A stretch of 27,794 nucleotides of DNA. It comes from a virus. The stretch is taken from positions 1 to 27,794 of the IMG/VR virus record IMGVR_UViG_3300042446_003067, one strand, 5' to 3'. This document shows positions 2,750-25,999 of this stretch, piece by piece. The notes below the pieces were generated by a model that saw nothing but the letters and a program-made list of their open reading frames with translations, was not told where the DNA came from and ran no database searches. The translations under genes and the position numbers were made by a program. Within the stretch, counting starts at the first letter, position 1, and each line of letters starts with the position of its first letter.

Positions 2750-4399
2750 ATGGAAAAAGCTTATAAATGGCTAAATAGCCACAGCCGTCTCTTTTTAGAG
2801 AGAGGCTATTTAGAAGAAGGAGTCTCTCCAGAAGAGAGGGTAAAAGAAATTGCTAAAAATGCAGAGAATATTCTAGGCATTGAAGGGTTTGCTGATAAGT
2901 TTGAAAAGTATACTTCTCTTGGTTATTATAGTCTAAGCACTCCAGTATGGATTAACTATGGGAATAGAAGGGGGCTTCCTGTTTCTTGTTTTAACTCTCA
3001 TATGGATGACACAATGACCGATATTCTTTGGAAGGTCGGAGAAGTAGGTATCATGTCAAAAATGGGGGGAGGAACTTCTGGCTTTTTTGGAGATCTTCGT
3101 AAAAGAGGTTCCAAAATAAGTTCTGGAGGAGAATCTAGTGGAGCAGTTCATTTCATGGAACTTTTTGACAAAGTTTCTGATGTGGTTAGTCAAGGGTCAG
3201 CTCGTAGAGGCAGCTTTGCAGCTTATCTTCCTGTCGAACATCCTGATATAGAAGAGTTCCTTATGATTCGTTCTGAAGGCCATGCTATTCAGAATATGAG
3301 CATTGGGGTGACAATCTCTGACGACTGGATGAATAGAATGATTGAGGGGGATAAAGACAAGAGAGGGATATGGGGGAAGATTGTGAAGAAAAGATTTGAA
3401 ACAGGGTATCCATATATTTTCTTTACTGATACTGTAAACAATGCGGCTCCTCAAGTTTATAAGGACAAAGGGTATAAAATAAATTCGAGTAATTTATGTT
3501 CAGAAATAACTCTTCAGTCTAAAGGGAATGAAAGTTTTGTCTGTGTTTTGTCTTCTTTGAATCTTCTTCATTGGGATGAAATTAAAGAAACTGATGCTGT
3601 TGAGACTTTGATCTATTTTCTTGATACTGTAAATCAAGAATTCGTTGACAAAACTAAAGAAATGAAATTCATGGAGGCTCCTCATGAATTCGCTAAAAAT
3701 CAAAGAGCTCTAGGAATGGGGGTATTAGGATGGCATTCTTTGCTTCAGTCAAAAATGATTCCCTTTGAATCTTTGGATGCAAAGATGCTTAACTCTGATA
3801 TGTGGAAAACTATCCGAGAAAGAGCAGATAAGGCTTCTAAAGATCTTGCTGATTTATTCGGAGAGCCAGAACTTCTCAAGGGATATGGAAGAAGGAATGT
3901 TACAACAATTGCTGTTGCTCCTACTACTTCCTCGTCATTTATTTTAGGACAGGTATCCCCGAGTATAGAGCCTTTAAATAGTAATTACTTTGTGAAGAAG
4001 CTTGCTAAAGGATCTTTTACTTTCAAAAACCCTTATCTAAAAGAAATCCTCAAGAAGTATAAGAATGATACAGATGAAGTGTGGAAATCTATTTTAATCA
4101 GAGGAGGCTCAGTTCAACATTTAGATTTTCTTTCTTCTGATGAAAAAGATGTATTTAAAACTTTTGGAGAAATCAGTCAAAAAGAAATTATTATTCAAGC
4201 TGCGCAAAGACAAAAATTTATTGATCAAAGTCAGAGCTTGAATATTATGATTCCTCCAGATGTAAAGCCTAAAGAAGTAAGCGACTTACTAATTGAGGCT
4301 TGGAAGATGGGAATTAAAACATTGTATTACCAAAGATCAGCTAATCCTGCTCAGGAATTATCTAGAAACATAATGACCTGCACTAGTTGCGAATCTTAA
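2750..4399 (+). CDS. nrdA: Class I ribonucleotide reductase, alpha (catalytic) subunit
   Basis: 549 aa. Catalytic residues are intact: Cys80 (PVSCFNS) and Cys265 (FVCVLSS) as the redox pair, and the active-site triad Asn248, Cys250, Glu252 in NLCSEI. The radical-transfer tyrosine pair is Tyr526-Tyr527 (TLYYQRS), the loop PTTSSSFILGQVSPSIEP is present, and the C-terminal CTSCES supplies the shuttle cysteines Cys544/Cys547. Bacterial NrdA is about 750 aa; the missing part is the N-terminal ATP cone, so dATP feedback inhibition at the overall-activity site should be lost, as in several phage enzymes. With NrdB it makes dNDPs for phage DNA synthesis. A possible promoter and a two-tier stem-loop lie at its 5' end. 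Confidence 0.95.
   Translation: MEKAYKWLNSHSRLFLERGYLEEGVSPEERVKEIAKNAENILGIEGFADKFEKYTSLGYYSLSTPVWINYGNRRGLPVSCFNSHMDDTMTDILWKVGEVGIMSKMGGGTSGFFGDLRKRGSKISSGGESSGAVHFMELFDKVSDVVSQGSARRGSFAAYLPVEHPDIEEFLMIRSEGHAIQNMSIGVTISDDWMNRMIEGDKDKRGIWGKIVKKRFETGYPYIFFTDTVNNAAPQVYKDKGYKINSSNLCSEITLQSKGNESFVCVLSSLNLLHWDEIKETDAVETLIYFLDTVNQEFVDKTKEMKFMEAPHEFAKNQRALGMGVLGWHSLLQSKMIPFESLDAKMLNSDMWKTIRERADKASKDLADLFGEPELLKGYGRRNVTTIAVAPTTSSSFILGQVSPSIEPLNSNYFVKKLAKGSFTFKNPYLKEILKKYKNDTDEVWKSILIRGGSVQHLDFLSSDEKDVFKTFGEISQKEIIIQAAQRQKFIDQSQSLNIMIPPDVKPKEVSDLLIEAWKMGIKTLYYQRSANPAQELSRNIMTCTSCES
2771..2813 (+). other. Two-tier stem-loop inside the 5' coding region of nrdA
   Basis: A perfect 10-bp inverted repeat, CTAAATAGCC (2771-2780) and GGCTATTTAG (2804-2813), encloses a second hairpin, TCTCT-TTTT-AGAGA (2788-2801). 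It begins 21 nt after the nrdA ATG. Coding constraint alone does not require such pairing; it may affect translation or mRNA stability, or serve as an operator. Function unproven. Confidence 0.5.
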
Positions 4400-4411
4400 A
4401 ATTTATTAAAA

Positions 4412-5581
4412 ATGAGTGACAATTTAACGAGTACTTATTACGGAAAAAAAATAGATACATCTAATATATTAAATATAGATGAAGCTGTTAATATACGCAA
4501 TGGAAAGCCCTGCGTAATCATAACAGGCGTCACTGGTCAAGATGGAAGTCATATGGTTGACTATTTACTTGAGAATACAGACTTTTTAATTTTTGGAGGA
4601 GTAAGAAGATTAAGTGTTTATAATCATGAAAATATTAAACATGTAAAATCAGATAGATTTCATCTCATTAATTTTGATTTGACTGATCCTCATGCTATTT
4701 CTAGGATTGTAGAAAAACTACTTCCTGATTATTTTATTAATTTTGCTGCTCAAAGTTTCGTTGCTAGTAGTTGGGATTTTGCTAGGCAAACATGGCAGGC
4801 TAATTCCACAGCTGTTCTTGATATATTAGAAGCTATCAGATTATATAAACCTACTTGTCGTTTGTATCAAGCTGGATCTTCCGAAGAATTCGGCAATGTT
4901 TTATATTTCCCTCAAGATGAGGCTCATCCCTTACGTCCTAGAAGTCCTTATGGAGCAAGTAAGGCTGCTTCTAGACAGCTTGTAAAAGTTTATAGAGAAT
5001 CTTATAATCTTTATGCTATTCAAGGCTGGTTATTTAACCATGAAGGGACAAGAAGGGGCGAAGAATTTGTTACTAGAAAAATATCTAAAAAAGTTTCTTC
5101 TATAAAATATTGTATAGATAACTCTTTAGATTTCTCTCCTTTGGAATTGGGAAATATAGATGCTAAAAGAGACTGGAGCGATGCTGAAGATTTCATGGAT
5201 GGAGTATGGAGAATGTTGAATCAAGATATTTATAATAAAGATTATTCAGGCATTCCAAATGAATATGTTTTCTCTTCTAATGAAACACATTCTATTAGAG
5301 AGTTTGTAGAAAAATCTTTCTATTATATTGGATTGGATTGCGCATGGGAAAACGAAACGAATAATCCTGAAGATGAAAAATTAGTAGCTTATATAAATGG
5401 GATTAAAAAAACTTTAATGATTGTCAATAAAAAGTTTTATAGACCAGCTGAAGTAGAAACTTTATTAGGAGACAGCTCTTTAGCCAGAAAAGATTTGGGT
5501 TGGGTTCCAAAATGTAACTTTGATCAGCTTGTTAATAAAATGCTTAAATCAGATATAGAGTCTTTCAATAAAATAACTTGA
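4412..5581 (+). CDS. GDP-mannose 4,6-dehydratase-like SDR enzyme
   Basis: 389 aa, extended short-chain dehydrogenase family. The NAD(P)-binding glycine motif TGVTGQDGSHM is at 38-48, the catalytic segment GSSEEFG at 155-161 (Ser156/Glu158 in place of the Thr/Glu of E. coli Gmd), and Y180xxxK184 in SPYGASKAA. Downstream the protein has the Gmd-typical FNHEGTRRGEEFVTRKI. This set is characteristic of Gmd, which converts GDP-mannose to GDP-4-keto-6-deoxymannose, the precursor of GDP-fucose, rhamnose or perosamine. It carries a ~30-residue N-terminal extension before the Rossmann fold, assuming the first ATG is used. No reductase or epimerase is adjacent, so the final sugar is unknown. The glycosyltransferases at 0-0.75 and 20.6-23.5 kb are possible users of the product. 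Confidence 0.88.
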   Translation: MSDNLTSTYYGKKIDTSNILNIDEAVNIRNGKPCVIITGVTGQDGSHMVDYLLENTDFLIFGGVRRLSVYNHENIKHVKSDRFHLINFDLTDPHAISRIVEKLLPDYFINFAAQSFVASSWDFARQTWQANSTAVLDILEAIRLYKPTCRLYQAGSSEEFGNVLYFPQDEAHPLRPRSPYGASKAASRQLVKVYRESYNLYAIQGWLFNHEGTRRGEEFVTRKISKKVSSIKYCIDNSLDFSPLELGNIDAKRDWSDAEDFMDGVWRMLNQDIYNKDYSGIPNEYVFSSNETHSIREFVEKSFYYIGLDCAWENETNNPEDEKLVAYINGIKKTLMIVNKKFYRPAEVETLLGDSSLARKDLGWVPKCNFDQLVNKMLKSDIESFNKIT

Positions 5582-7663: not shown

Positions 7664-8803
7664 ATGCCATCCAAAAGAAAAGACGACTCATCAAGCGAGA
7701 CAGGTTCAAAAGACATGCTCTCTTCATTCTTAAAAGATAATGAAGATAATCACTTTAACTATTTACAGCCTGATGAAGTTACTATTTCTTCTGGATCTCT
7801 AAATCTAGATGCTCTTATCAAAGTTCGCTCTGGCTCTTTTGTCAGAGTTTGTGGTAAGGGTAGCGAGCTAGGAAAAACATCTCAATGTTTTGTTTTTGCT
7901 CAAAATTACATGGATAAGATCGAAAGATCTAAAACCATTTTTATAAAAGCTGAAGCTCGTCTCACTCCAGAGATGCAAAAAAGAACTGGGATGAAATTCG
8001 TTACAGACCCTACTAACTGGGAGTATGGCACAGTGTTTGTCTTTAGTTGTAATGTATTCGAAACAATTGCTTCTCTTATCGAGAGCGTTCTACCTAAAAT
8101 GCATGAAGCTGGAGAAAAGCTTTGTATCATCCTTGATTCTTTAGATGGTGTTATACTTAAGTCGGATAAGGAGAAGAATCTTTGGAATGGAGATGAGAAT
8201 ATCAAAGTTGCAGGTGTTCCTCTCTTAACTAAGATTCTATTTAAAAGATTGGCTCTAAAGATAGTCCACTTTGATGCTTTATTTTTGATTACAAGTCAGT
8301 ATACAGCAGAGATAAAACTAGACCCTTATAGTAAAACGCCCCCAAGACAAAGCGATGGAGCTGGAGGGTCTGCCATTAATCACCAGAGCGATATAACTCT
8401 TTCATATCAGCCCAGATATGGAGGAGATTATATCCTTGAAAAACCTAATGATAAGCCTGACCCAATAAAGAATAAAACTTTAGGAGTTTACGCTACTATT
8501 GAAATTAAAAAGTCATCTACAGATGTAACAGGTTCAAAAGTTAAAATCCCTATCAAAAAAGGCAGAAGCGGATGCGCTATTTGGGTGGAGAAGGAAGTAG
8601 TTGATATGATTATTGCTTTTGAGTTGATTTCGAAAAAGGGAGCATGGTATTCATTTTCTGAGTCTATTATTTCGTTAGCTAAAAATGATGGAGTGGATAT
8701 TCAGATGCAGCATCAAGGAATTGGATCTGTTTATGATTATATTGAAAATAATAAAGATGTATTCGAATGGTTGCTTAAAAAAGTCAAAGAGATTATTTCA
8801 TAA
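7664..8803 (+). CDS. RecA/UvsX-like recombinase
   Basis: 379 aa, RecA-fold ATPase. The Walker A motif is the altered GKGSELGKT (residues 64-72, Lys71) in place of GPESSGKT. The catalytic glutamate is Glu97 in FIKAEARLT (RecA Glu96 position). The Walker B strand LCIILDSLDGV carries Asp158. A segment GGSAINHQSDITLSYQ corresponds to the RecA GGNALKFYAS region around loop L2 and the following strand. It should form filaments on ssDNA and catalyse strand exchange for recombination-dependent replication and repair, the role of T4 UvsX. The first ~35 residues are Ser/Lys/Asp-rich and probably disordered. Its stop overlaps the next ATG (TAATG), coupling it to a PD-(D/E)XK-type nuclease. Confidence 0.82.
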   Translation: MPSKRKDDSSSETGSKDMLSSFLKDNEDNHFNYLQPDEVTISSGSLNLDALIKVRSGSFVRVCGKGSELGKTSQCFVFAQNYMDKIERSKTIFIKAEARLTPEMQKRTGMKFVTDPTNWEYGTVFVFSCNVFETIASLIESVLPKMHEAGEKLCIILDSLDGVILKSDKEKNLWNGDENIKVAGVPLLTKILFKRLALKIVHFDALFLITSQYTAEIKLDPYSKTPPRQSDGAGGSAINHQSDITLSYQPRYGGDYILEKPNDKPDPIKNKTLGVYATIEIKKSSTDVTGSKVKIPIKKGRSGCAIWVEKEVVDMIIAFELISKKGAWYSFSESIISLAKNDGVDIQMQHQGIGSVYDYIENNKDVFEWLLKKVKEIIS

Positions 8804-9219
8804 TGCTGCTCACTAAGCTGCACGGCTCTTCTAAAATCAATGTCCCATCTAAATCGAATATAGATTGGGACAAGAAAGTCTCTTCCCCTCAATTTAAAGT
8901 TAAATCTTTTCTCCGAGAGTTTTGGAAAAATGATGTAATTGTAGAAGAGTTTATTATCCCCGGAAGTAAATTCAGAATTGACTTATTTAACTTATCTAAG
9001 AAATTGGCTGTAGAAGTAAGTCCAGATGAGTATCATAATTCTTTTAATAAATGGCTTCATAAAGATCGACAGAAGTTTCTGTCTAAAATTAAAGCTGACG
9101 AATTAAAAAAAGAATGGTGTATAAAAAATTCTATAAACTTGGTAGAACTTTTTAATGAAGATATAAATAATTTATCTGTTGACTATTTCGAAAAAAAATA
9201 TAATATACTGCTTTACTAA
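8803..9219 (+). CDS. Probable PD-(D/E)XK-type nuclease, copy A
   Basis: 138 aa. The core resembles small DUF559/Vsr-like endonucleases: an acidic residue before a strand (EEFIIP, Glu48/49), then FRIDLFNLSKKLAVEVS with Asp60 and Glu71, then His78. The usual lysine after the second acid is absent (EVS). It is clearly homologous to the protein at 9534-9950 (shared layout: VKxF, W, EE.xIP, R.D..N.S.K.AVEV, E/L-rich C-terminus). Of the two, this copy has the less canonical post-EV segment (SPDEYH against NGLFH), so it may have different specificity or reduced activity. Its position after the RecA-like gene suggests recombination or repair cleavage, for example branched DNA (inference). Confidence 0.55.
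   Translation: MLLTKLHGSSKINVPSKSNIDWDKKVSSPQFKVKSFLREFWKNDVIVEEFIIPGSKFRIDLFNLSKKLAVEVSPDEYHNSFNKWLHKDRQKFLSKIKADELKKEWCIKNSINLVELFNEDINNLSVDYFEKKYNILLY
9179..9209 (+). promoter_or_regulatory. Putative promoter inside the end of nuclease A
   Basis: TTGACT (9179-9184), 16-nt spacer, TAATAT (9201-9206); alternatively TATACT (9204-9209, 19-nt spacer). The next ATG (9221) is 11 nt after TATACT, the same distance as at 9938-9943/9955. The run is AT-rich, so chance is not excluded. Confidence 0.3.
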
Positions 9220-9533: not shown

Positions 9534-9950
9534 ATGAAATGGATTACAGCAAATGGGAATATTCGCCCACTTTCTGAAAAAAAATATTCCATAAAATGGG
9601 ATAGTGAAAGTTTAAGTTTATTTCAATTTAATGTAAAACAATTCTTCAAAAAATATTGGATTGAAGATATTGTAGGAGAAGAGGTAGTTATTCCTCAAAC
9701 CCGTTTACGAGTCGATATTGTTAATTTTTCTAGGAAAATTGCAGTCGAAGTAAACGGGTTATTCCATGTAGAGTATACGCCTTATTTCCAAAACTCTGTC
9801 GAAGATTTTGAGAGGCAAGTATATAGAGATGTACTTAAAGAATATCTTCTTGAAAAAAATGGATTTGAAGTAATAGAGATCTATGAAAAAAATATGCCAT
9901 TGAGAGAAAAATGGGTTGAAAAAGTTTTTGGATCTCATATACTATTGTAA
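9534..9950 (+). CDS. Probable PD-(D/E)XK-type nuclease, copy B
   Basis: 138 aa, the same length as copy A at 8803-9219 and clearly its paralog. Core: EEVVIP (Glu49/50), LRVDIVNFSRKIAVEVNG with Asp61 and Glu72, followed by His78. The D...EVNG..H arrangement is the DUF559/Vsr-like form of the PD-(D/E)XK active site, in which the Lys is replaced. The C-terminal YLLEKNGFEVIEIYEKN matches the strand after the helix in that family. Likely role is an endonuclease in recombination, mismatch or branch processing. TATAGT (9519-9524) lies 9 nt before the ATG, without a good -35. A possible promoter for the next gene lies in its last codons. Confidence 0.6.
   Translation: MKWITANGNIRPLSEKKYSIKWDSESLSLFQFNVKQFFKKYWIEDIVGEEVVIPQTRLRVDIVNFSRKIAVEVNGLFHVEYTPYFQNSVEDFERQVYRDVLKEYLLEKNGFEVIEIYEKNMPLREKWVEKVFGSHILL
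9916..9943 (+). promoter_or_regulatory. Putative promoter before the alpha-CTD-like gene
   Basis: TTGAAA (9916-9921), 16-nt spacer, TATACT (9938-9943). The ATG at 9955 is 11 nt after the -10 box, giving a predicted leader of only about 5 nt. Confidence 0.4.
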
Positions 9951-14965: not shown

Positions 14966-15757
14966 ATGACTCAATTAATCCCATTGTTTAAGTCGCACTA
15001 TAGTCTATTGCGTTCTATTCTAACTGTTGATCCATATGACTCAAGTAGAGATAAAGATCTTCCTGATAGTATTATAGATATAGCTGTAGAGAATAAGCTT
15101 AAAGAGATAGTCTTAGTAGAAGATAGTATGTCTGGATATATTGCGGCTTTGCAAGCTTGCGAAGCTTCTAATATTAAGCTTATATTTGGATTGAGGATGA
15201 CATTTATCAGGGACTCTTCTGAGAAGACAGATGATTCTTTGATATCGTGTCATAAAAATATTATTTTCCCGAAGAACCTAAAAGGATACAAAACTTTAAT
15301 CAAGTTATCTACTCTAGCATCTTATGATAATTTTTACAAAGAGCCTAGACTTTCTTATTCTGATTTGTATAAATATTGGAGTGATGACTTAGAAATCGCT
15401 ATTCCTTTTTATGATTCTTTCATTCATAATAATCTTTTAAAAGAGAATATATGCGTACCAGAATTTTCAAAAAATATTCCTCATACAATTTTTATTGAAT
15501 CTAATGGTATAGTATTTGATAATCTTCTTCGTAATGCTGCATTAGAATATGCAAAGGCTTATAAAGTAGAAGTCCTTGAAACAAAAAGCATTTATTATAA
15601 AAATCGAGAAGATTTTGATGCTTTTCTAGCTCTTAAATGTTTGAATAGAAAAAAATTTGGATCAGGGAGGACTTTAGATAATCCGGGTTTTGATGATATG
15701 TCTTCCAGAGAATTCAGCTGGGAATCTTATCTAGAAGCTAAAGATCGTTTAATTTAA
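14966..15757 (+). CDS. DNA polymerase III alpha, detached PHP-domain subunit
   Basis: 263 aa equivalent to the N-terminal PHP domain of DnaE. IPLFKSHYSLLRSILTV stands where LHxHSxYSLLDG begins in DnaE. LKEIVLVEDSMSGYIAALQAC and NIKLIFGLRMTFI match ALTDHGNMYGALEFY and IKPIIGxExYV, and the later KNLKGYKTLIKLSTLAS matches the NxxGYxNLxKLxS segment. Near its end, FDAFLALKCLNRKKF is the DnaE region just before the palm. The metal-binding His and Asp residues are lost (VLVEDS for ALTDHG), so the PHP site should be inactive, as in E. coli. It stops at the PHP/palm boundary; the rest of the polymerase is at 16615. It presumably binds the core and the DnaQ-like exonuclease. Confidence 0.8.
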   Translation: MTQLIPLFKSHYSLLRSILTVDPYDSSRDKDLPDSIIDIAVENKLKEIVLVEDSMSGYIAALQACEASNIKLIFGLRMTFIRDSSEKTDDSLISCHKNIIFPKNLKGYKTLIKLSTLASYDNFYKEPRLSYSDLYKYWSDDLEIAIPFYDSFIHNNLLKENICVPEFSKNIPHTIFIESNGIVFDNLLRNAALEYAKAYKVEVLETKSIYYKNREDFDAFLALKCLNRKKFGSGRTLDNPGFDDMSSREFSWESYLEAKDRLI

Positions 15758-15766
15758 ATATTAATT

Positions 15767-15994
15767 ATGGCAAATAATAAAATTGGAGACTTTGTTCAGT
15801 GCAGAGGCTTTTTTGGCATTCAGATTTTCGCTGAAATAAAAAGCATAGAAGAAGTTATGGGAGTTAATGAATACACTATAGAAGGTCCAGAGGGCGAGTA
15901 TAAAATGTTTTCACCTCAATCATTGACTAAAAAAGATGCAAAAGAATGGATTAAAAAGCTAGAAGATAATATACAATTTTTAAAAACAATATGA
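15767..15994 (+). CDS. Hypothetical protein inside the split polymerase locus (75 aa)
   Basis: Not recognised. 75 aa; residues 1-50 look like a small beta-barrel (KIGDFVQCRGF, GIQIFAEIKSI, VNEYTIEGPEGEYKMF), and the rest is one charged helix (TKKDAKEWIKKLEDNIQFL). The KIGDFV start and GEYKMFSP segment resemble SH3-like translation or DNA-binding barrels, but no family can be named. It lies between the PHP gene and the DnaQ-like gene and overlaps the latter by ATGA, so it could be an accessory part of the polymerase (a theta-like linker, for instance); that is only positional inference. Confidence 0.55.
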   Translation: MANNKIGDFVQCRGFFGIQIFAEIKSIEEVMGVNEYTIEGPEGEYKMFSPQSLTKKDAKEWIKKLEDNIQFLKTI

Positions 15995-16611
15995 ATAAAC
16001 TAGATATTAACCAGCGAATTTATTTTGCTGATACAGAGACGGAAGGTCTTAATTTAAATACTTCTCGTCCATGGGAATTCGCTTGGGTAGTTATGGAGAA
16101 TGGCGTTATAGTAGATAGCCAGTCTAGATATTTATGGTGGGAAGATCTTAATGTTAATCCTAAGGCTGCTGAAGTCACAGGCTTTAATTATAAAAAATAT
16201 GAAAAGATTGCTAAATGCCCGAAGGAAGTTTACAAAGAGATTTCTCCATGGTTTTTTGGAGATGATCTTTTAGGTTTTCATAATGGATTAAAATTCGATG
16301 TTTATCAAATTAGAAATTGGTTTCGTGAAATAGGAGAGTCTACAGACTTCGATTGGGTTTCAAGAGTAGTAGACACTAATGCTCTAGCAAAAGCTTTTCT
16401 AAGTGGATCAACCCCAGATTTTGACAATTTCGACGCTTGGCAACTTCGATGGGCAAATTTTATCAAGAAAGGTTTGAAAAGTAATGTAGCTTATCTTTGT
16501 AATGAATGGGGTATTGAAATAGATGCTTCCAAAACTCACCAAGGAGATTATGATTGTTTTCTAACTGCTCAAATTTTCAAAAAACTCGCTTACAATTTTC
16601 AAGAGACTTAA
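15991..16611 (+). CDS. DnaQ-like 3'-5' exonuclease (proofreading subunit)
   Basis: 206 aa of the DEDDh exonuclease superfamily. Exo I is FADTETEGLN (Asp14, Glu16), Exo II is GFHNGLKFDVYQIR (Asp103), Exo III is HQGDYDCFLTAQIF (His183, Asp188). All five catalytic positions are present. It probably proofreads for the C-family polymerase encoded immediately downstream, taking the place of epsilon, although a nucleotide-recycling exonuclease cannot be excluded. It lacks an obvious QxSMxF-type clamp motif or a long C-terminal tail for binding the PHP domain. It is coupled to the 75-aa gene (ATGA) and ends three bases before the polymerase core. Confidence 0.85.
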   Translation: MNKLDINQRIYFADTETEGLNLNTSRPWEFAWVVMENGVIVDSQSRYLWWEDLNVNPKAAEVTGFNYKKYEKIAKCPKEVYKEISPWFFGDDLLGFHNGLKFDVYQIRNWFREIGESTDFDWVSRVVDTNALAKAFLSGSTPDFDNFDAWQLRWANFIKKGLKSNVAYLCNEWGIEIDASKTHQGDYDCFLTAQIFKKLAYNFQET

Positions 16612-16614
16612 AAT

Positions 16615-19176
16615 ATGTTACCCTTTTTAGATAGATTCGAAAAAATAGATCTTAATATCCATGGGATTAGACTCCCAAAATTTTGTTTGAGCAAAGAAGA
16701 TTATGCTACGCTGGATCTTCCTTTTAACTTGAACGGATCTGACTTAACAAGTTTAGAGCTTTTTAATTTTCTAGTTGAAAAGGGATTTGAAAAAAGATTA
16801 AAGAATGATATTAACTCAAAAGAAGAGAAATCTTATAGAGATAGATTGTCTTATGAAATGGGTGTAATTAGCCCCACAGATTTCGTAGATTATTTATTGA
16901 TGGTATGGGATGTCGTCAATATCGCTAAAAAAAATAATATCGCTGTAGGACCGGGTAGAGGTAGTGCTGCTTCTAGTTTGGTTCTATACTGTCTTGGTGT
17001 AACTAATATTGACCCCGTAAAAAATGGTTTATATTTTGAAAGATTCTTGTCTCCTTCGAGAACGACACCTAACATAGTAGACGGTATTAAATATTATTCC
17101 GATGCCGCAGATATTGATCTTGATATTGAGGACTCTAAACGGGAAACACTAATTGAAATTCTAAAGAAAAAATATGATGGCTATTTTTGTAAAGTTTCTA
17201 CTTACAGTACATTGCAAAGTAGAAAGAATATTAAAGAGGTTTGTAAAATTGTTTTGGGATATTCAGAACAACAAAGTCTCGAAATTTCTTCACAAATTCC
17301 TTCTCTATTTGGGAAGGTGCATTCCTTAAAAAATGCTGTAAAAGAAGTCCCATCTTTTGCAGAGTTCGTAAAAGAAAATACTAAAGCATATAAAATAGCA
17401 TTAAAGCTTTCAGAATTGAACTGTTCTAAAGGTTCTCATGCTAGTGCTTATATTGTATCTTATAATAAACTAATTGATTCTATTCCATGTGAAATGGGAG
17501 AAGATGAAATGGTTACAAGTTATGATATGAATTATGCTCAACTTGATAATATCAAGCTTGACTTGCTGGGACTAAAAGCTGTTGGTATTATCAATGAGGT
17601 TTGTACTAATTTAAATTTAAAGCCTGAAAACTTTGATATTAATTATGAAAATGTCTTTAGTCATCTTCAAGATGTTAAATATCCATATGGACTTTTCCAA
17701 ATTAGTGGTGACTGCAACTTAGGAGTAGTCAATAAAGTAAAGCCTAAAAATATGGATGATCTAGCAGCAGTTACTGCTCTAGCTAGACCGGGAGCTTTGC
17801 AGTTCGTTGATAGGTATGCCCAGTTCGTTAATGAAGGGAAGAATGAGTCTATCCACCCATTCTTTGATGAGCTTTTGAAATCAACTGCATCTCTGGCTCT
17901 TTATCAAGAGTCTACCATGCAGATGTGTGAGAAGATTGGTCTTACAAAAGCTGACGGGGAAGTTATCCGTAAGTGCATTGGTAAGAAGAAAATCAAAGAG
18001 ATGGCTAAGTGGAAAGATATTATCTTTGAGACTTGTGAAAAGAATGGATTAAATAAAGAGATTCCAGATCTATTATGGAAGATTTTAGAAGATTCTGCAA
18101 ATTATTCGTTTAACAAAAGTCACAGTTTTTCTTATGCAAGTATTGCAGCCTCGACGGTTTATCTAAAACATAAATATCCTCAGCAGTTCTTCCTCGCTTG
18201 TCTTAAGATAGCTTCTACTAGAGGCGATTTCTTAGAGCAGTTTCAGCTTATCCAACATGAGTTGCCCCATTTTGGGATCGAACTTATGCCCCCGAATATA
18301 GCTAAAAGCGGATTAGGTTTTTCTATTGAAGGGAAGAATATCCGATTCGGACTAGGAGAGATAAAAGGTATATCAGATAAGAGTATAGATAAGCTTCGCA
18401 GTTTCATATCTTCTGATATAGATTCTGATTTTAAATTATATAATTCAGCTAAAGATGCTAAACTTGGAATAGGTATTCTTTCTTCTTTGATTCAGAGTGG
18501 AGCTTTAGGTCATACAGTTAAGGATAGGTCTAAGAAGGTCCTAGAAGCTCAGCTTTGGAATCTATTAACTCCAAAGGAAAAGATATTTTGTATAAATAAT
18601 GAAGGTAAATATGGTTCAGATTTAATCGTAATGCTTAAAGATTATTTGAACTGGATAGATTCTAATGGTAAAAAGTTTACTAAAGAATCTCGTCTAGAAA
18701 CTATTCGTAAAAATTCTGTAGGGTATTTTAAAATATATAATCTCAATAGTCGTAATGAGCTTTTAGCGTCATTCTTCTACGAAAGAATGCTTTTAGGATT
18801 TTCTTATTCTACAACCATGAAAATGGTTTTTGGAGATTTTAATATTGACATTCGTAATATAGATGAGATAGAACAGTATGTTCCTGTTAAAGGTAACTTT
18901 GAACTTATTTGCATTGTTAAAGAGACTCTCTCTGGGAAGAGTAAGGGTGGCAATAGGTATATAAAGATGAAAATCTTTGATGAAACAGGTACTAAATATG
19001 CAATGTTATTAGGAGATAAATTGGCTCAATATTTAGAAAAAAGTGAAGAACCAAAAGAAGAAGATATATTGTATATAAAAGGAACAAAAGGTGATGATAT
19101 TTTTTGGATAAATAAAATGGAAGTTCAAAACCATAAAGCTTATACAAAACTCTCTGAACTAAAAAATATAGAATAA
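16615..19176 (+). CDS. DNA polymerase III alpha, polymerase core (PHP-less DnaE)
   Basis: 853 aa, beginning after the PHP domain. Palm/fingers motifs: VGPGRGSAASSLVLYCLGVTNIDP in outline (111 onward), FERFLSPSR, then ADIDLDIED with the catalytic Asp168/Asp170 and Asp316 in KLDLLGL (E. coli Asp401, Asp403, Asp555). The ANYSFNKSHSFSYA segment with helix YLKHKYPQQFFLA matches the DnaE region FNKSHAAAYxxxxYxxxxLKxxYPxEF. A C-terminal OB domain includes VKGNFELICIVKE and GGNRYIKMKIFDETG. About 12 extra residues lie between FLSPSR and the catalytic aspartates. QLWNLL after an Arg/Lys-rich stretch is a weak clamp-motif candidate. This is the main replicative polymerase; together with the 14966 PHP protein it rebuilds a ~1,115-residue DnaE. 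Confidence 0.9.
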   Translation: MLPFLDRFEKIDLNIHGIRLPKFCLSKEDYATLDLPFNLNGSDLTSLELFNFLVEKGFEKRLKNDINSKEEKSYRDRLSYEMGVISPTDFVDYLLMVWDVVNIAKKNNIAVGPGRGSAASSLVLYCLGVTNIDPVKNGLYFERFLSPSRTTPNIVDGIKYYSDAADIDLDIEDSKRETLIEILKKKYDGYFCKVSTYSTLQSRKNIKEVCKIVLGYSEQQSLEISSQIPSLFGKVHSLKNAVKEVPSFAEFVKENTKAYKIALKLSELNCSKGSHASAYIVSYNKLIDSIPCEMGEDEMVTSYDMNYAQLDNIKLDLLGLKAVGIINEVCTNLNLKPENFDINYENVFSHLQDVKYPYGLFQISGDCNLGVVNKVKPKNMDDLAAVTALARPGALQFVDRYAQFVNEGKNESIHPFFDELLKSTASLALYQESTMQMCEKIGLTKADGEVIRKCIGKKKIKEMAKWKDIIFETCEKNGLNKEIPDLLWKILEDSANYSFNKSHSFSYASIAASTVYLKHKYPQQFFLACLKIASTRGDFLEQFQLIQHELPHFGIELMPPNIAKSGLGFSIEGKNIRFGLGEIKGISDKSIDKLRSFISSDIDSDFKLYNSAKDAKLGIGILSSLIQSGALGHTVKDRSKKVLEAQLWNLLTPKEKIFCINNEGKYGSDLIVMLKDYLNWIDSNGKKFTKESRLETIRKNSVGYFKIYNLNSRNELLASFFYERMLLGFSYSTTMKMVFGDFNIDIRNIDEIEQYVPVKGNFELICIVKETLSGKSKGGNRYIKMKIFDETGTKYAMLLGDKLAQYLEKSEEPKEEDILYIKGTKGDDIFWINKMEVQNHKAYTKLSELKNIE

Positions 19177-19812: not shown

Positions 19813-19860
19813 AAACATTTTTCATTTTAAAATGTAATATTAGTATACAAAAATTTTGAG

Positions 19861-19896
19861 ATGAAAGTCTCTTTCCAAAACAAACCAAACAAATAA
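19861..19896 (+). CDS. Possible 11-residue leader ORF before the SSB-like gene
   Basis: ATG at 19861 followed by ten sense codons (MKVSFQNKPNK) and TAA, ending 12 nt before the SSB-like ATG. TATACA (19844-19849) lies 11 nt before this ATG, the same spacing as the -10-like boxes at 9204 and 9938. It could be a leader peptide, or a chance ORF. It partly fills the largest gene-free gap in the window (19813-19908); the rest of the gap is AT-rich and holds the palindrome CATTTTAAAATG (19823-19834). Confidence 0.2.
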   Translation: MKVSFQNKPNK

Positions 19897-20562: not shown

Positions 20563-20586
20563 TGTTTAGTTAAATAAAATAATCGA

Positions 20587-20620
20587 GGCTTCTCACTTTT
20601 TAGGTGAGGGGCCTTTTTTT
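20587..20620 (+). terminator. Intrinsic (rho-independent) terminator
   Basis: A 10-bp stem, GGCTTCTCAC (20587-20596) with GTGAGGGGCC (20604-20613), two pairs being G-U, 7-nt loop, followed by seven T (20614-20620). It closes the replication block after the SSB-like gene; it is the only strong terminator found in the window. Confidence 0.88.
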
Positions 20621-20627
20621 GTAAATA

Positions 20628-20635
20628 TATAAATA
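20628..20635 (+). promoter_or_regulatory. TATAAATA box, candidate late-type promoter
   Basis: TATAAATA, identical to the T4 late-promoter consensus recognised by the sigma-like gp55, lies just after the terminator and 10 nt before the ATG at 20646. No -35 element is visible upstream. In such AT-rich DNA the match may be chance, but its place at the head of a new transcription unit is apt. Confidence 0.4.
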
Positions 20636-23799: not shown

Positions 23800-24654
23800 A
23801 TGCTAAAGTCTAGTAATCATTCTGATATTAAAGACTCTCAAGAAGAACCTTCCAAAAAGTCTTCTAAAAAAAGAGTTATTGCACCTGCGAAAACAGGTTT
23901 AGATTCTCCTCTTTTATTTGTTCAGCCTGAAGATGGCATTTTTAAACCATTGAGAAACGAAGCTGGTCTTTTAAATAATATCAATTATCCTTTAAAGTCT
24001 AATGGTCTTATAGATTGGAGGAAACTTATTCCAAGGGAGCATATTGTATTGAATAAATACAATTTCGCTGCAAGGGCTATTCCATTAGATGATTTAAGTC
24101 AGGAGGATATTGATCGACTTATAGATGAATCCCCAGAAGAAGATCTCGTTATTAAATTAGCAGGATTTAGAGAATTGGCGTCTATTAGAGGTTACTCTTT
24201 GATTGACCCTATTCCAGTATCTTCGTCTGGAGATAGTGTTACAATGAAAGTTGTAATTAAATGGATACCTAATATAGAAAACCCTTTGGAGATGACAGTA
24301 GGGGCCACAGCTAATGCTTCTATCTCTAATACTGATGAAAAGTTTTCTAAATTTCTAGAAACTATCGCTGAGAACAGGGCTTTCATTCGAGCTGTTAGAC
24401 ATTCTTTGGGAATTATATCTCTAGGTCAAGATGAGATGAAACAAGAAGACGTGAAAGCTGAAGCTCAAACTGTAAAAATACAATCTTTGTTATCTCAGCA
24501 TTTAGATAAATATGCTATGGATATTTTCTCTCTGAAAGATTTAGTTTCTATAGAAGGATTTGAATGGAATCCTAAGTGGACTACTATTGAGAGAATTGAT
24601 CCAGCCGCAGCTATGAGTTTCATTACTATTTTAAAATCTAAATATAATAAATAA
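23800..24654 (+). CDS. Conserved phage protein, possible ssDNA-annealing (Rad52/Erf-like) protein
   Basis: 284 aa. After a Ser/Lys-rich disordered start (about 1-30) comes a conserved domain: DWRKLIPREHIVLNKYNF, EEDLVIKLAGFRELASIRGY, strands VTMKVVIKWIP, and LETIAENRAFIRAVRHSLGI with GQDEM. The pattern (K.AG...LA..RGY, beta-strands, then AExRAxxRAVR) resembles phage single-strand annealing proteins of the Rad52/Erf type, which would suit a recombination-driven phage. The match is by pattern only and is modest; an unrelated phage DNA-metabolism protein remains possible. Its stop overlaps the next start (TAATG). Confidence 0.4.
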   Translation: MLKSSNHSDIKDSQEEPSKKSSKKRVIAPAKTGLDSPLLFVQPEDGIFKPLRNEAGLLNNINYPLKSNGLIDWRKLIPREHIVLNKYNFAARAIPLDDLSQEDIDRLIDESPEEDLVIKLAGFRELASIRGYSLIDPIPVSSSGDSVTMKVVIKWIPNIENPLEMTVGATANASISNTDEKFSKFLETIAENRAFIRAVRHSLGIISLGQDEMKQEDVKAEAQTVKIQSLLSQHLDKYAMDIFSLKDLVSIEGFEWNPKWTTIERIDPAAAMSFITILKSKYNK

Positions 24655-25220
24655 TGTTTTTAACTACTTTCCATCCGCATCAAAACGAGGAGAATTTAAG
24701 AAAATTTATTGAAAAAAGTAAAACTGAAATAGTAGTTTTATCTTATAAACCTTTGCAAGATATTTCATATGGTCTAGTTACTTTCAGAAATATTCCTCCT
24801 CAAGATGAGGCTTTAAATATTTTTCTTTCTGTATTGTCTTCTGATCAAATCGAAAGTAAAGATTTCACATTAATAGATTGGGAAATTATAAATTTGTATT
24901 CCTCTTTGGAAACTGAAATCTCTAAATTAAAAATGACAGAACAGGGATTTGAAATTATACAAGAGAATGTTACAGTTCAAGATTTTAGACTTCATCCTTA
25001 TCTGGGCAATCTCTTAAAGATTTGTCATGATCTGAAATTATCTGGAGTGGATAGACTTTTTTCTGAAAATCCTTTATTGATTCTCCCTAAAATTTTAAGG
25101 GGAGAAAAGACTAAACTGATAGAAGCTTTAAGTCAATTTTCTGTAATTAGAGAGTCTTTTAAAAATCAAAATTTTTGCGGTTGTATTCCTATTTTTAATT
25201 CTCAATTCTCAATAAAATGA
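24654..25220 (+). CDS. Hypothetical protein (188 aa)
   Basis: Not recognised. 188 aa, mixed alpha/beta at the start (FLTTFHPHQNEENL, EIVVLSYKPL, YGLVTFRNIP) and mainly helical afterwards (NIFLSVLSS, LLKICHDLKLSGVDRLF, LIEALSQFSVI). Two Cys near the end (FCGC) could be redox or metal-binding. No catalytic motif is evident. It is coupled to the preceding gene by TAATG and to the sigma-like gene by ATGA, so it may be part of a recombination/transcription unit. Function cannot be assigned. Confidence 0.5.
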   Translation: MFLTTFHPHQNEENLRKFIEKSKTEIVVLSYKPLQDISYGLVTFRNIPPQDEALNIFLSVLSSDQIESKDFTLIDWEIINLYSSLETEISKLKMTEQGFEIIQENVTVQDFRLHPYLGNLLKICHDLKLSGVDRLFSENPLLILPKILRGEKTKLIEALSQFSVIRESFKNQNFCGCIPIFNSQFSIK

Positions 25221-25669
25221 TCCTAGAAGAAAAAGTAAAAAACTTTTGTTTAACTGGAGATTATTCTATGGGTAAGGATATACTAGAACAGTCTTATAAA
25301 TTAGCAAATACTATTGTTTGTAATAAATATAAAAATTTTGGATATACAGAAGATTTATTATCTGAATCTCATGACGCTATAATTTCTGCTATTTACGCTT
25401 TTAACCCTGAAAATAAAACTAAATTTTTAACATTCTGTTCTGTTTGCATTAATAACAGAATACAAAATTTTATAAAAAGAAAAAAAGTATCTTATAAATA
25501 TGTTTCAAACCAGAAAGATAAATCTTTTTCTGATTTAGAAAGTCTAGATATTTTGAATTCTTTGAAAACCTTAAGCGAGAATCATTTCAACTGCTTGACA
25601 AAAGGAGAAGGGTCTAGATCAATGAAATTTAGAGCAAAAAGAAAACTTATAAATGGTATAATAGATTAA
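25217..25669 (+). CDS. Sigma-70 region 2 protein (gp55-like candidate)
   Basis: 150 aa. Residues ~21-90 follow sigma region 2: DILEQSYKLANTIVCNKYKNF, GYTEDLLSESHDAIISAIYAF in outline (EDLxxEgxxGLxxAixxFdp), NPENKTKFLTFCSVCINNRI (Fxp..g.kFxTYAxxxIrxxI), then a basic NFIKRKK. Region 2 binds the RNAP beta' clamp helices and the -10 DNA. No clear region 4 is seen; the short C-terminus (LDILNSLKTL, then RSMKFRAKRKL) may be a remnant or clamp-contact tail. The size and single-domain form resemble T4 gp55 (~185 aa), the late sigma factor, but a truncated ECF-type sigma is also possible. The only TATAAATA box in an intergenic gap lies at 20628. Start in an ATGA overlap. Confidence 0.72.
   Translation: MILEEKVKNFCLTGDYSMGKDILEQSYKLANTIVCNKYKNFGYTEDLLSESHDAIISAIYAFNPENKTKFLTFCSVCINNRIQNFIKRKKVSYKYVSNQKDKSFSDLESLDILNSLKTLSENHFNCLTKGEGSRSMKFRAKRKLINGIID
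25654..25662 (+). promoter_or_regulatory. Extended -10 promoter candidate
   Basis: TGGTATAAT (TGn plus perfect TATAAT) lies within the 3' end of the sigma-like gene, 10 nt before the ATG at 25673. No -35 match is seen; extended -10 promoters may do without one. Predicted leader is about 3-5 nt. Confidence 0.4.
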
Positions 25670-25672
25670 TAT

Positions 25673-25999
25673 ATGTCTGAAAATAAAAATCAAATAGAAA
25701 ATGTGCTTGAACTCATAGAACAAGTTTTTCCTAGTACTGCGGAAAAAATATCTACGATAGCATTTGTTAATTGGCATAATATTCTTAATCATTCATCTTT
25801 AGAAGGAATGGATGAAAAAGAAATTTTATTCTGCTGTAATTTAATTTTATCTTTAGCATCTGTTCATTTCTCTGATAAAAACAAAGATCTAAATGAAATT
25901 TCTGAAAAACTAAAAGAAGTTTCTTTCGAAGATACTATCTCATTTCTTCAAGATGATTCTGATGAAGACGAAGATGAAGATGAAGAAAATTTTTTATAA
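25673..25999 (+). CDS. Hypothetical protein with poly-acidic tail (108 aa)
   Basis: 108 aa. Two or three amphipathic helices (ENVLELIEQVF, EILFCCNLILSLASVHF, LNEISEKLKEV), then an Asp/Glu run (DDSDEDEDEDEENFL). The helix pattern (EKEILFCCNLILSLASVHF...L..IS.KLKE) is loosely similar to the paired acidic proteins at 19178 and 19549, making a third relative possible but not proven. Such tails occur on nucleic-acid mimics and on partners of basic proteins. It follows the sigma-like gene, with a possible extended -10 promoter of its own. Confidence 0.5.
   Translation: MSENKNQIENVLELIEQVFPSTAEKISTIAFVNWHNILNHSSLEGMDEKEILFCCNLILSLASVHFSDKNKDLNEISEKLKEVSFEDTISFLQDDSDEDEDEDEENFL

Follow-up and report, generated by a model that had tools for sequence, protein, structure and literature searches.

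A short phage protein with sigma region 2 and no recognisable region 4 as a candidate minimal promoter-specificity factor

The stretch of DNA analysed here (the window) is one entire IMG/VR virus record of 27,794 bases. It carries genes for nucleotide metabolism (ribonucleotide reductase, thymidylate synthase, a MazG-like pyrophosphohydrolase and dCMP deaminase) and for replication and recombination (a UvsX-like recombinase, DnaB helicase, primase and a PolIII-alpha-type polymerase), as well as an RNA ligase and a ClpP-like head protease. A first-pass annotation had placed a phage-encoded sigma-like protein at 25217-25669, and an ORF of 150 aa was found at exactly these positions, within the block of replication and nucleotide-metabolism genes. 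Relatives were present in IMG/VR: G001, a contig with the same sequence as the window; G002-G004, near-identical to each other, whose protein is 88% identical; and the more distant G011, at 52%. The sigma family is thus represented by three distinct sequences, carried by contigs that are genome fragments. The relevant features, all on the plus strand, are the following:

20585-20620, plus strand: intrinsic-terminator-like hairpin with a T run, upstream of the operon ending with the sigma-like gene; a hairpin also occurs in G002 and G011.
20628-20635, plus strand: TATAAATA box cited in the first-pass annotation; present, with no TTGAC at -35 distance; the relatives read TATATTTT and TATATAAT.
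24654-25220, plus strand: ORF of 188 aa with no function assigned, in the same operon; its stop overlaps the start of the sigma-like gene (ATGA); syntenic in G011.
25217-25669, plus strand: sigma-like gene, 150 aa, ATG to TAA with the stop codon included; intact, with equal-length homologues at 88% and 52% identity.
25256-25486, plus strand: sigma region 2, residues 14-90, in which the acidic residues D46/E50/D53 align with the beta' clamp helix contacts of gp55.
25544-25663, plus strand: C-terminal module, residues 110-149, of helices predicted at low confidence; possibly a region 4 remnant or a gp55-like helix-loop-helix.
25610-25639, plus strand: GSRSMKFRAK motif (residues 132-141), identical in all three family members while its flanks diverge.
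25673-25999, plus strand: small helical ORF of 108 aa, a candidate partner; conserved and syntenic in G002 (117 aa) and G011 (105 aa).

Since the 188-aa ORF overlaps the sigma-like gene and the 108-aa ORF starts only 3 nt past its stop, the gene was assigned to an operon within the replication block. Gene order is the same in G011 (261-aa ORF, 195-aa ORF, sigma-like gene, 105-aa ORF). All proteins of the family are 150 aa long, and the differences between the window and G002 genes are mostly silent (pN 0.07, pS 0.64, silent sites being near saturation). Equal length, synteny, the invariant GSRSMKFRAK and the prevalence of silent changes indicate that the short form is the functional one. The missing region 4 could also be read as the mark of an ordinary sigma gene that was truncated or frameshifted, yet the probability of this is negligible: length and C-terminus are kept down to 52% identity, changes are mostly silent, and no region 4 occurs in any nearby frame. 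The pseudogene or frameshift reading was ruled out by this conservation of length, C-terminus and context. No relative of the protein was found in the bacterial genomes searched, nor any longer contig with more of the structural genes; likewise, a literature search for phage sigmas without region 4 returned nothing.

Further observations were made on the replication block and on the contigs of the relatives. The PolIII-alpha polymerase appeared to be split, a 263-aa ORF corresponding to the N-terminal part and an 853-aa ORF to the remainder of the same PHROG_405 profile (window coordinates 14966-15757, 15991-16611 and 16615-19176, with a proofreading-exonuclease-like gene in between), and this layout is also kept in G011. 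In G002, the polymerase gene (contigs L027/L028, reverse complement 3453-4925) displayed an insertion of about 1.4 kb relative to window positions 18086-18126, with an intein-like motif at its end (NFYADDIVVSNSHSFSY); it looks divided into two frames, while the window gene is uninterrupted. The same relative codes for a tmRNA, which scores 76.8 bits in Rfam, and for five tRNAs (L027 16260-16661 and 7710-12882, both minus strand); it also has some ten short ORFs in an array, all with repeated Gly/Asp/Ser/Tyr-rich sequence of GDGDG type (L027, reverse complement 28630-32069). Two paralogous 138-aa ORFs in the window (8803-9219 and 9534-9950) gave weak HNH-type PHROG matches; they look resident rather than mobile because G011 has a separate syntenic counterpart for each (55% and 66%).

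The assignment of region 2 is secure and places the protein in the sigma-70 superfamily. NCBIfam returned SigE (E=1.9e-9) and SigK (2.4e-8) over residues ~11-98, many other sigma-70 families being weaker, and the best PDB sequence match was the N-terminal domain (domain 2) of SigE (2.2e-8, residues 14-89). PHROG_351 matched at 3.3e-6 and Pfam Sigma70_r2 at 6.9e-4, the latter with a score just under the gathering cut-off. Pairwise scores of residues 1-90 against four SigE-type sigmas were 99-110, as compared with maxima of 43-49 in 200 shuffles. By profile, this region 2 is nearest to that of SigE/SigK-type group 3 sigmas. Regions 2.3/2.4, which handle promoter DNA, are kept as well as the core-binding part. 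The earlier statement that region 2 is well preserved was therefore borne out by NCBIfam, PDB and PHROG matches and by the pairwise shuffles. Region 3 families were absent from the profile matches, which stop at about residue 90-118.

Region 4 was sought by several routes. Sigma70_r4 was absent from Pfam results up to E=10 for the full protein, its C-terminal 60 residues and the two relatives, and neither Sigma70_r4 nor r4_2 appeared in six-frame searches of the contigs examined, which are incomplete genomes. This search has some reach, since the degenerate region 4 of SPO1 gp34, used as a yardstick, was detected in the same Pfam library at E=0.058. The locus thus encodes an intact, conserved 150-aa protein with region 2 as its one significant domain and no region 3 or 4 by curated profiles, and the absence of a clear region 4 proposed at first pass withstood the search with curated profiles that might have overturned it. 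A more nuanced picture came from a custom profile, built from nine region 4 sequences and set against the C-termini of the three family members. It aligned residues ~111-148 to region 4, leaving one gap of 17 residues that takes out the first helix of the helix-turn-helix, at a score of 15.65 that was reached by 4 of 600 column shuffles (p=0.007) and exceeded by a segment of an unrelated helical protein (16.69); the score dropped to 9.65 once SPO1 gp34 was removed from the profile. Pairwise tests of this reading were not significant. Three helices were predicted at 110-149, with pLDDT of 53-61 at best in poor AlphaFold models built on two sequences; a PDB fold search with such a model ranked sigma factors first, at E of 0.3 or more, which has illustrative value only. 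The reading of the C-terminal helices as what is left of a region 4 after the loss of 17 residues is suggestive but unproven.

The first-pass annotation had likened the protein to T4 gp55. This likeness gives the best account of the mechanism, with region 2 on the beta' clamp and recognition of the -10 alone; kinship was not supported. In the HMM comparison that the annotation had proposed, an alignment of the window and G002 proteins gave an hhalign probability of 14% against nine gp55s vs 96% (95.8%, E 8e-9) against five sigmas, mostly of SigE type. The 'late sigma' family PHROG_234 matched weakly over residues 36-102 (E=0.012; 4e-5 to 3e-4 per record for contigs), and BLASTP against gp55 was not significant. 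In the hhalign alignment, D46/E50/D53, invariant in the family, fall on gp55 E70/D74/E77, the acidic residues on the beta' clamp helices (PMC7892883); this triad is weak evidence of membership because it is common to sigma factors generally. The hydrophobic-acidic sliding-clamp epitope at the gp55 C-terminus (SPSLDFLYEAND) has no counterpart in the three family members, the C-termini of which are basic (KRKLINGIID, KKLIKGITN and KKAFFKNLNS). As for partners, the neighbouring ORF is unlike gp33 and no gp45 was seen in the annotated stretches of this incomplete genome. Since functional anatomy is shared (region 2, C-terminal helices, acidic triad) and sequence kinship is not, the protein probably functions like gp55 without belonging to its family.

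An ORF of about 105 aa (105-117 aa) lies directly downstream of the sigma-like gene in all three lineages. Near its end it keeps (T/S)I(S/A)FL, which resembles SLDFL and TLDFL at the gp55 and gp33 termini. A profile of this ORF displayed no similarity beyond shuffles to T4 gp33 or SPO1 gp33, and neither the ORF nor its homologue had a Pfam match, including the Phage_Gene33 family (PF25742). Its identification as gp33 was dropped for want of support from the profile comparison. There is precedent for an accessory gene beside a sigma gene: in SPO1, gene 33, annotated as a sigma accessory, adjoins gene 34.

Recognition of -10-type boxes had originally been illustrated by TATAAATA, notably the copy at 20628, and here the evidence dissolved. 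Nine copies occur in the window vs 5.3 expected, a number reached by 11 of 100 shuffles, and most are intragenic. Upstream of 96 starts there were 3 exact copies vs 1.1 expected (reached by 9 of 100 shuffles) and 19 one-mismatch copies vs 17.9, these late-promoter counts resting on contigs with few late genes. In the contig of presumed structural genes (G009), the two strands carry 9 copies each, which points to codon usage. As copy numbers differ little from chance and the two relatives do not keep the box at 20628, the reading of TATAAATA as a T4-type late promoter was rejected for these contigs, which carry few late genes. What the window and both relatives do share at this site is a layout without TTGAC, in which the terminator hairpin is followed by an A/T-rich box close upstream of the ATG. 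Window position 20627 and G002 (reverse complement) 32315 also share ATATAAATA(G/A)CACAAT upstream of unrelated genes, a coincidence noticed post hoc. An element TATACAAA at 19844, conserved in G002, was considered as a phage-specific promoter and discarded, as no further convincing copies were found. De novo k-mer enrichment upstream of genes gave no motif, being swamped by Gly-rich coding repeats, and the motif searches revealed no promoter motif assignable to the sigma-like protein.

Host-type TTGAC-N16-TANNNT sites were enriched upstream of genes and occur in the window upstream of 2750, 5615, 7216 and 26437. With some genes served by promoter-like sites of this kind, promoters consisting of a -10 alone are not general in this phage. 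Those at 2712, 5578 and 26404, together with their equivalents on L050/L028, end just 5-10 nt before the ATG, which would leave the mRNAs with hardly any leader. Shine-Dalgarno-like sequences are very scarce (window, 2 of 34 starts vs 14% of random ATGs; G011, contigs L076/L077, 2 of 28 starts vs 11%). A Bacteroidota host, which the missing Shine-Dalgarno sequences had suggested, was not borne out: TAnnTTTG is not enriched and the promoters seen are of the TTGAC/TANNNT type. Two other upstream regions deserve mention. At 19831-19875, upstream of ORF 19909, and at the equivalent places in G002 and G011, a -10-like element is immediately followed by a short hairpin whose sequence varies while pairing, judged by eye, is kept (GAGA..TCTC, GAGG..CCTC, GAGTC..GACTC), perhaps a 5' mRNA hairpin. 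In G009 (L050 7400-7880), a strong TTGACA promoter precedes an ORF-free stretch of about 450 nt that is apparently higher in G+C, has no Rfam match and may encode a phage non-coding RNA.

Taken together, the protein is fairly probably a member of the sigma-70 family that serves the phage as a minimal promoter-specificity factor, binding at the beta' clamp and working with -10-like elements. Region 2 would replace the host sigma on the beta' clamp helices of host core RNA polymerase, and would capture and melt an A/T-rich -10-like element. Promoters without a -35 would be served, the -35-reading domain being missing; recognition of the -10 without a -35, as first proposed, is plausible with region 2 kept and no recognisable region 3 or 4. 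The basic C-terminal helices could stabilise the complex via the beta flap, the template strand or a partner protein. Made alongside replication proteins, the factor might turn on a later class of genes. Core binding and -10 use we infer from homology; which class of promoter the factor serves, and when it acts, are guesses.

The alternatives differ mainly in what the C-terminus does: it may represent a reduced region 4 that contacts the beta flap, a helix-loop-helix like that of gp55, or the place where the product of the downstream ORF docks. In the first case, which is a more specific form of the minimal-factor account, the protein would be a SigE-type sigma whose region 4 has lost ~17 residues, including the first helix-turn-helix helix, so that it reads no -35 and still grips the beta flap; in this reading one chain does what T4 needs gp55 and gp33 for. 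The one-gap custom alignment, matched by few shuffles, the three helices predicted with low confidence and the SigE/SigK-like region 2 speak for it. Yet an unrelated helical segment scored higher, the score leaned on SPO1 gp34, Pfam found no region 4 and pairwise tests were not significant, which leaves this a tentative option and on balance an unlikely one. The stronger claim, an independently evolved single-chain counterpart of gp55 plus gp33, derived from a SigE-type factor and keeping on the beta flap a region 4 without its DNA-reading helix, is quite doubtful; a review of T4 late transcription asks why a fused late sigma is not known in nature (PMC2988020). A sigma split in two, working only together with the adjacent ~105-aa ORF (25673-25999) as a stand-in for region 4 or a gp33-like co-activator, would account for that ORF following the gene directly in three lineages, and both the (T/S)I(S/A)FL motif reminiscent of gp55/gp33 ends and the SPO1 arrangement of genes 33 and 34 lend it some appeal. 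We regard it as doubtful, since the ORF is unlike either gp33, contains no region 4 and has no database match, the motif was a post hoc observation, and operon neighbours need not interact.

Two further readings concern region 2 itself. A host-takeover decoy would occupy the beta' clamp helices and block the host sigma without initiating at promoters, which agrees with the core-binding domain being the only one clearly present and with the failure to find a promoter motif; it is nonetheless improbable, for a pure blocker would not need region 2.3/2.4, which matches the core-binding part in its degree of conservation. Descent as a true gp55-family late sigma, orthologous to T4 gene 55, might be argued from the weak PHROG_234 match and from similar size and gene neighbourhood, but it is highly improbable given the hhalign preference for SigE-type sigmas, the non-significant BLASTP, the missing clamp-binding tail, the failure to find a late-promoter motif on contigs with few late genes, and a phage polymerase of PolIII-alpha type. 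We thus retain the minimal promoter-specificity factor as our preferred reading.

Among known systems, SPO1 gp34 with its accessory gp33 offers a phage sigma with region 2 and a small adjoining gene. Yet gp34 retains a detectable region 4 (E=0.058), and the neighbour in the window is unrelated to gp33 and sits downstream rather than upstream of the sigma gene. The split sigma SigO/RsoA of B. subtilis (PMC10141391) is comparable, by description and not by sequence, in that sigma function is divided and one subunit is a small single-domain protein; it differs in that the contigs searched here, which are incomplete genomes, yielded no protein carrying region 4 on its own. SigE/SigK-type group 3 sigmas and their phage copies have the closest region 2, both by profile and by PDB sequence, but carry regions 3 and 4, of which the 150-aa family displays no recognisable form.

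T4 gp55, the late sigma acting with gp33 and the sliding clamp gp45, is likewise a small phage protein with region 2 only. Both would have extra C-terminal helices (predicted here), acidic beta' clamp residues at matching positions and, probably, -10-only recognition. The present family differs by the lineage of its region 2, by a basic C-terminus without an SLDFLY-type clamp epitope, and in that neither a gp33 nor TATAAATA late promoters were recognised on these contigs, which carry few late genes. The best-documented promoter factors with region 2 only come from T4-type phages. If a SigE-type region 2 has given rise to a second case, apparently an independent one, this would show how small a part of a sigma a virus needs to redirect bacterial RNA polymerase. 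The tiny family, with three distinct sequences of 150 aa and an adjacent candidate partner, is amenable to direct work with purified core RNA polymerase.
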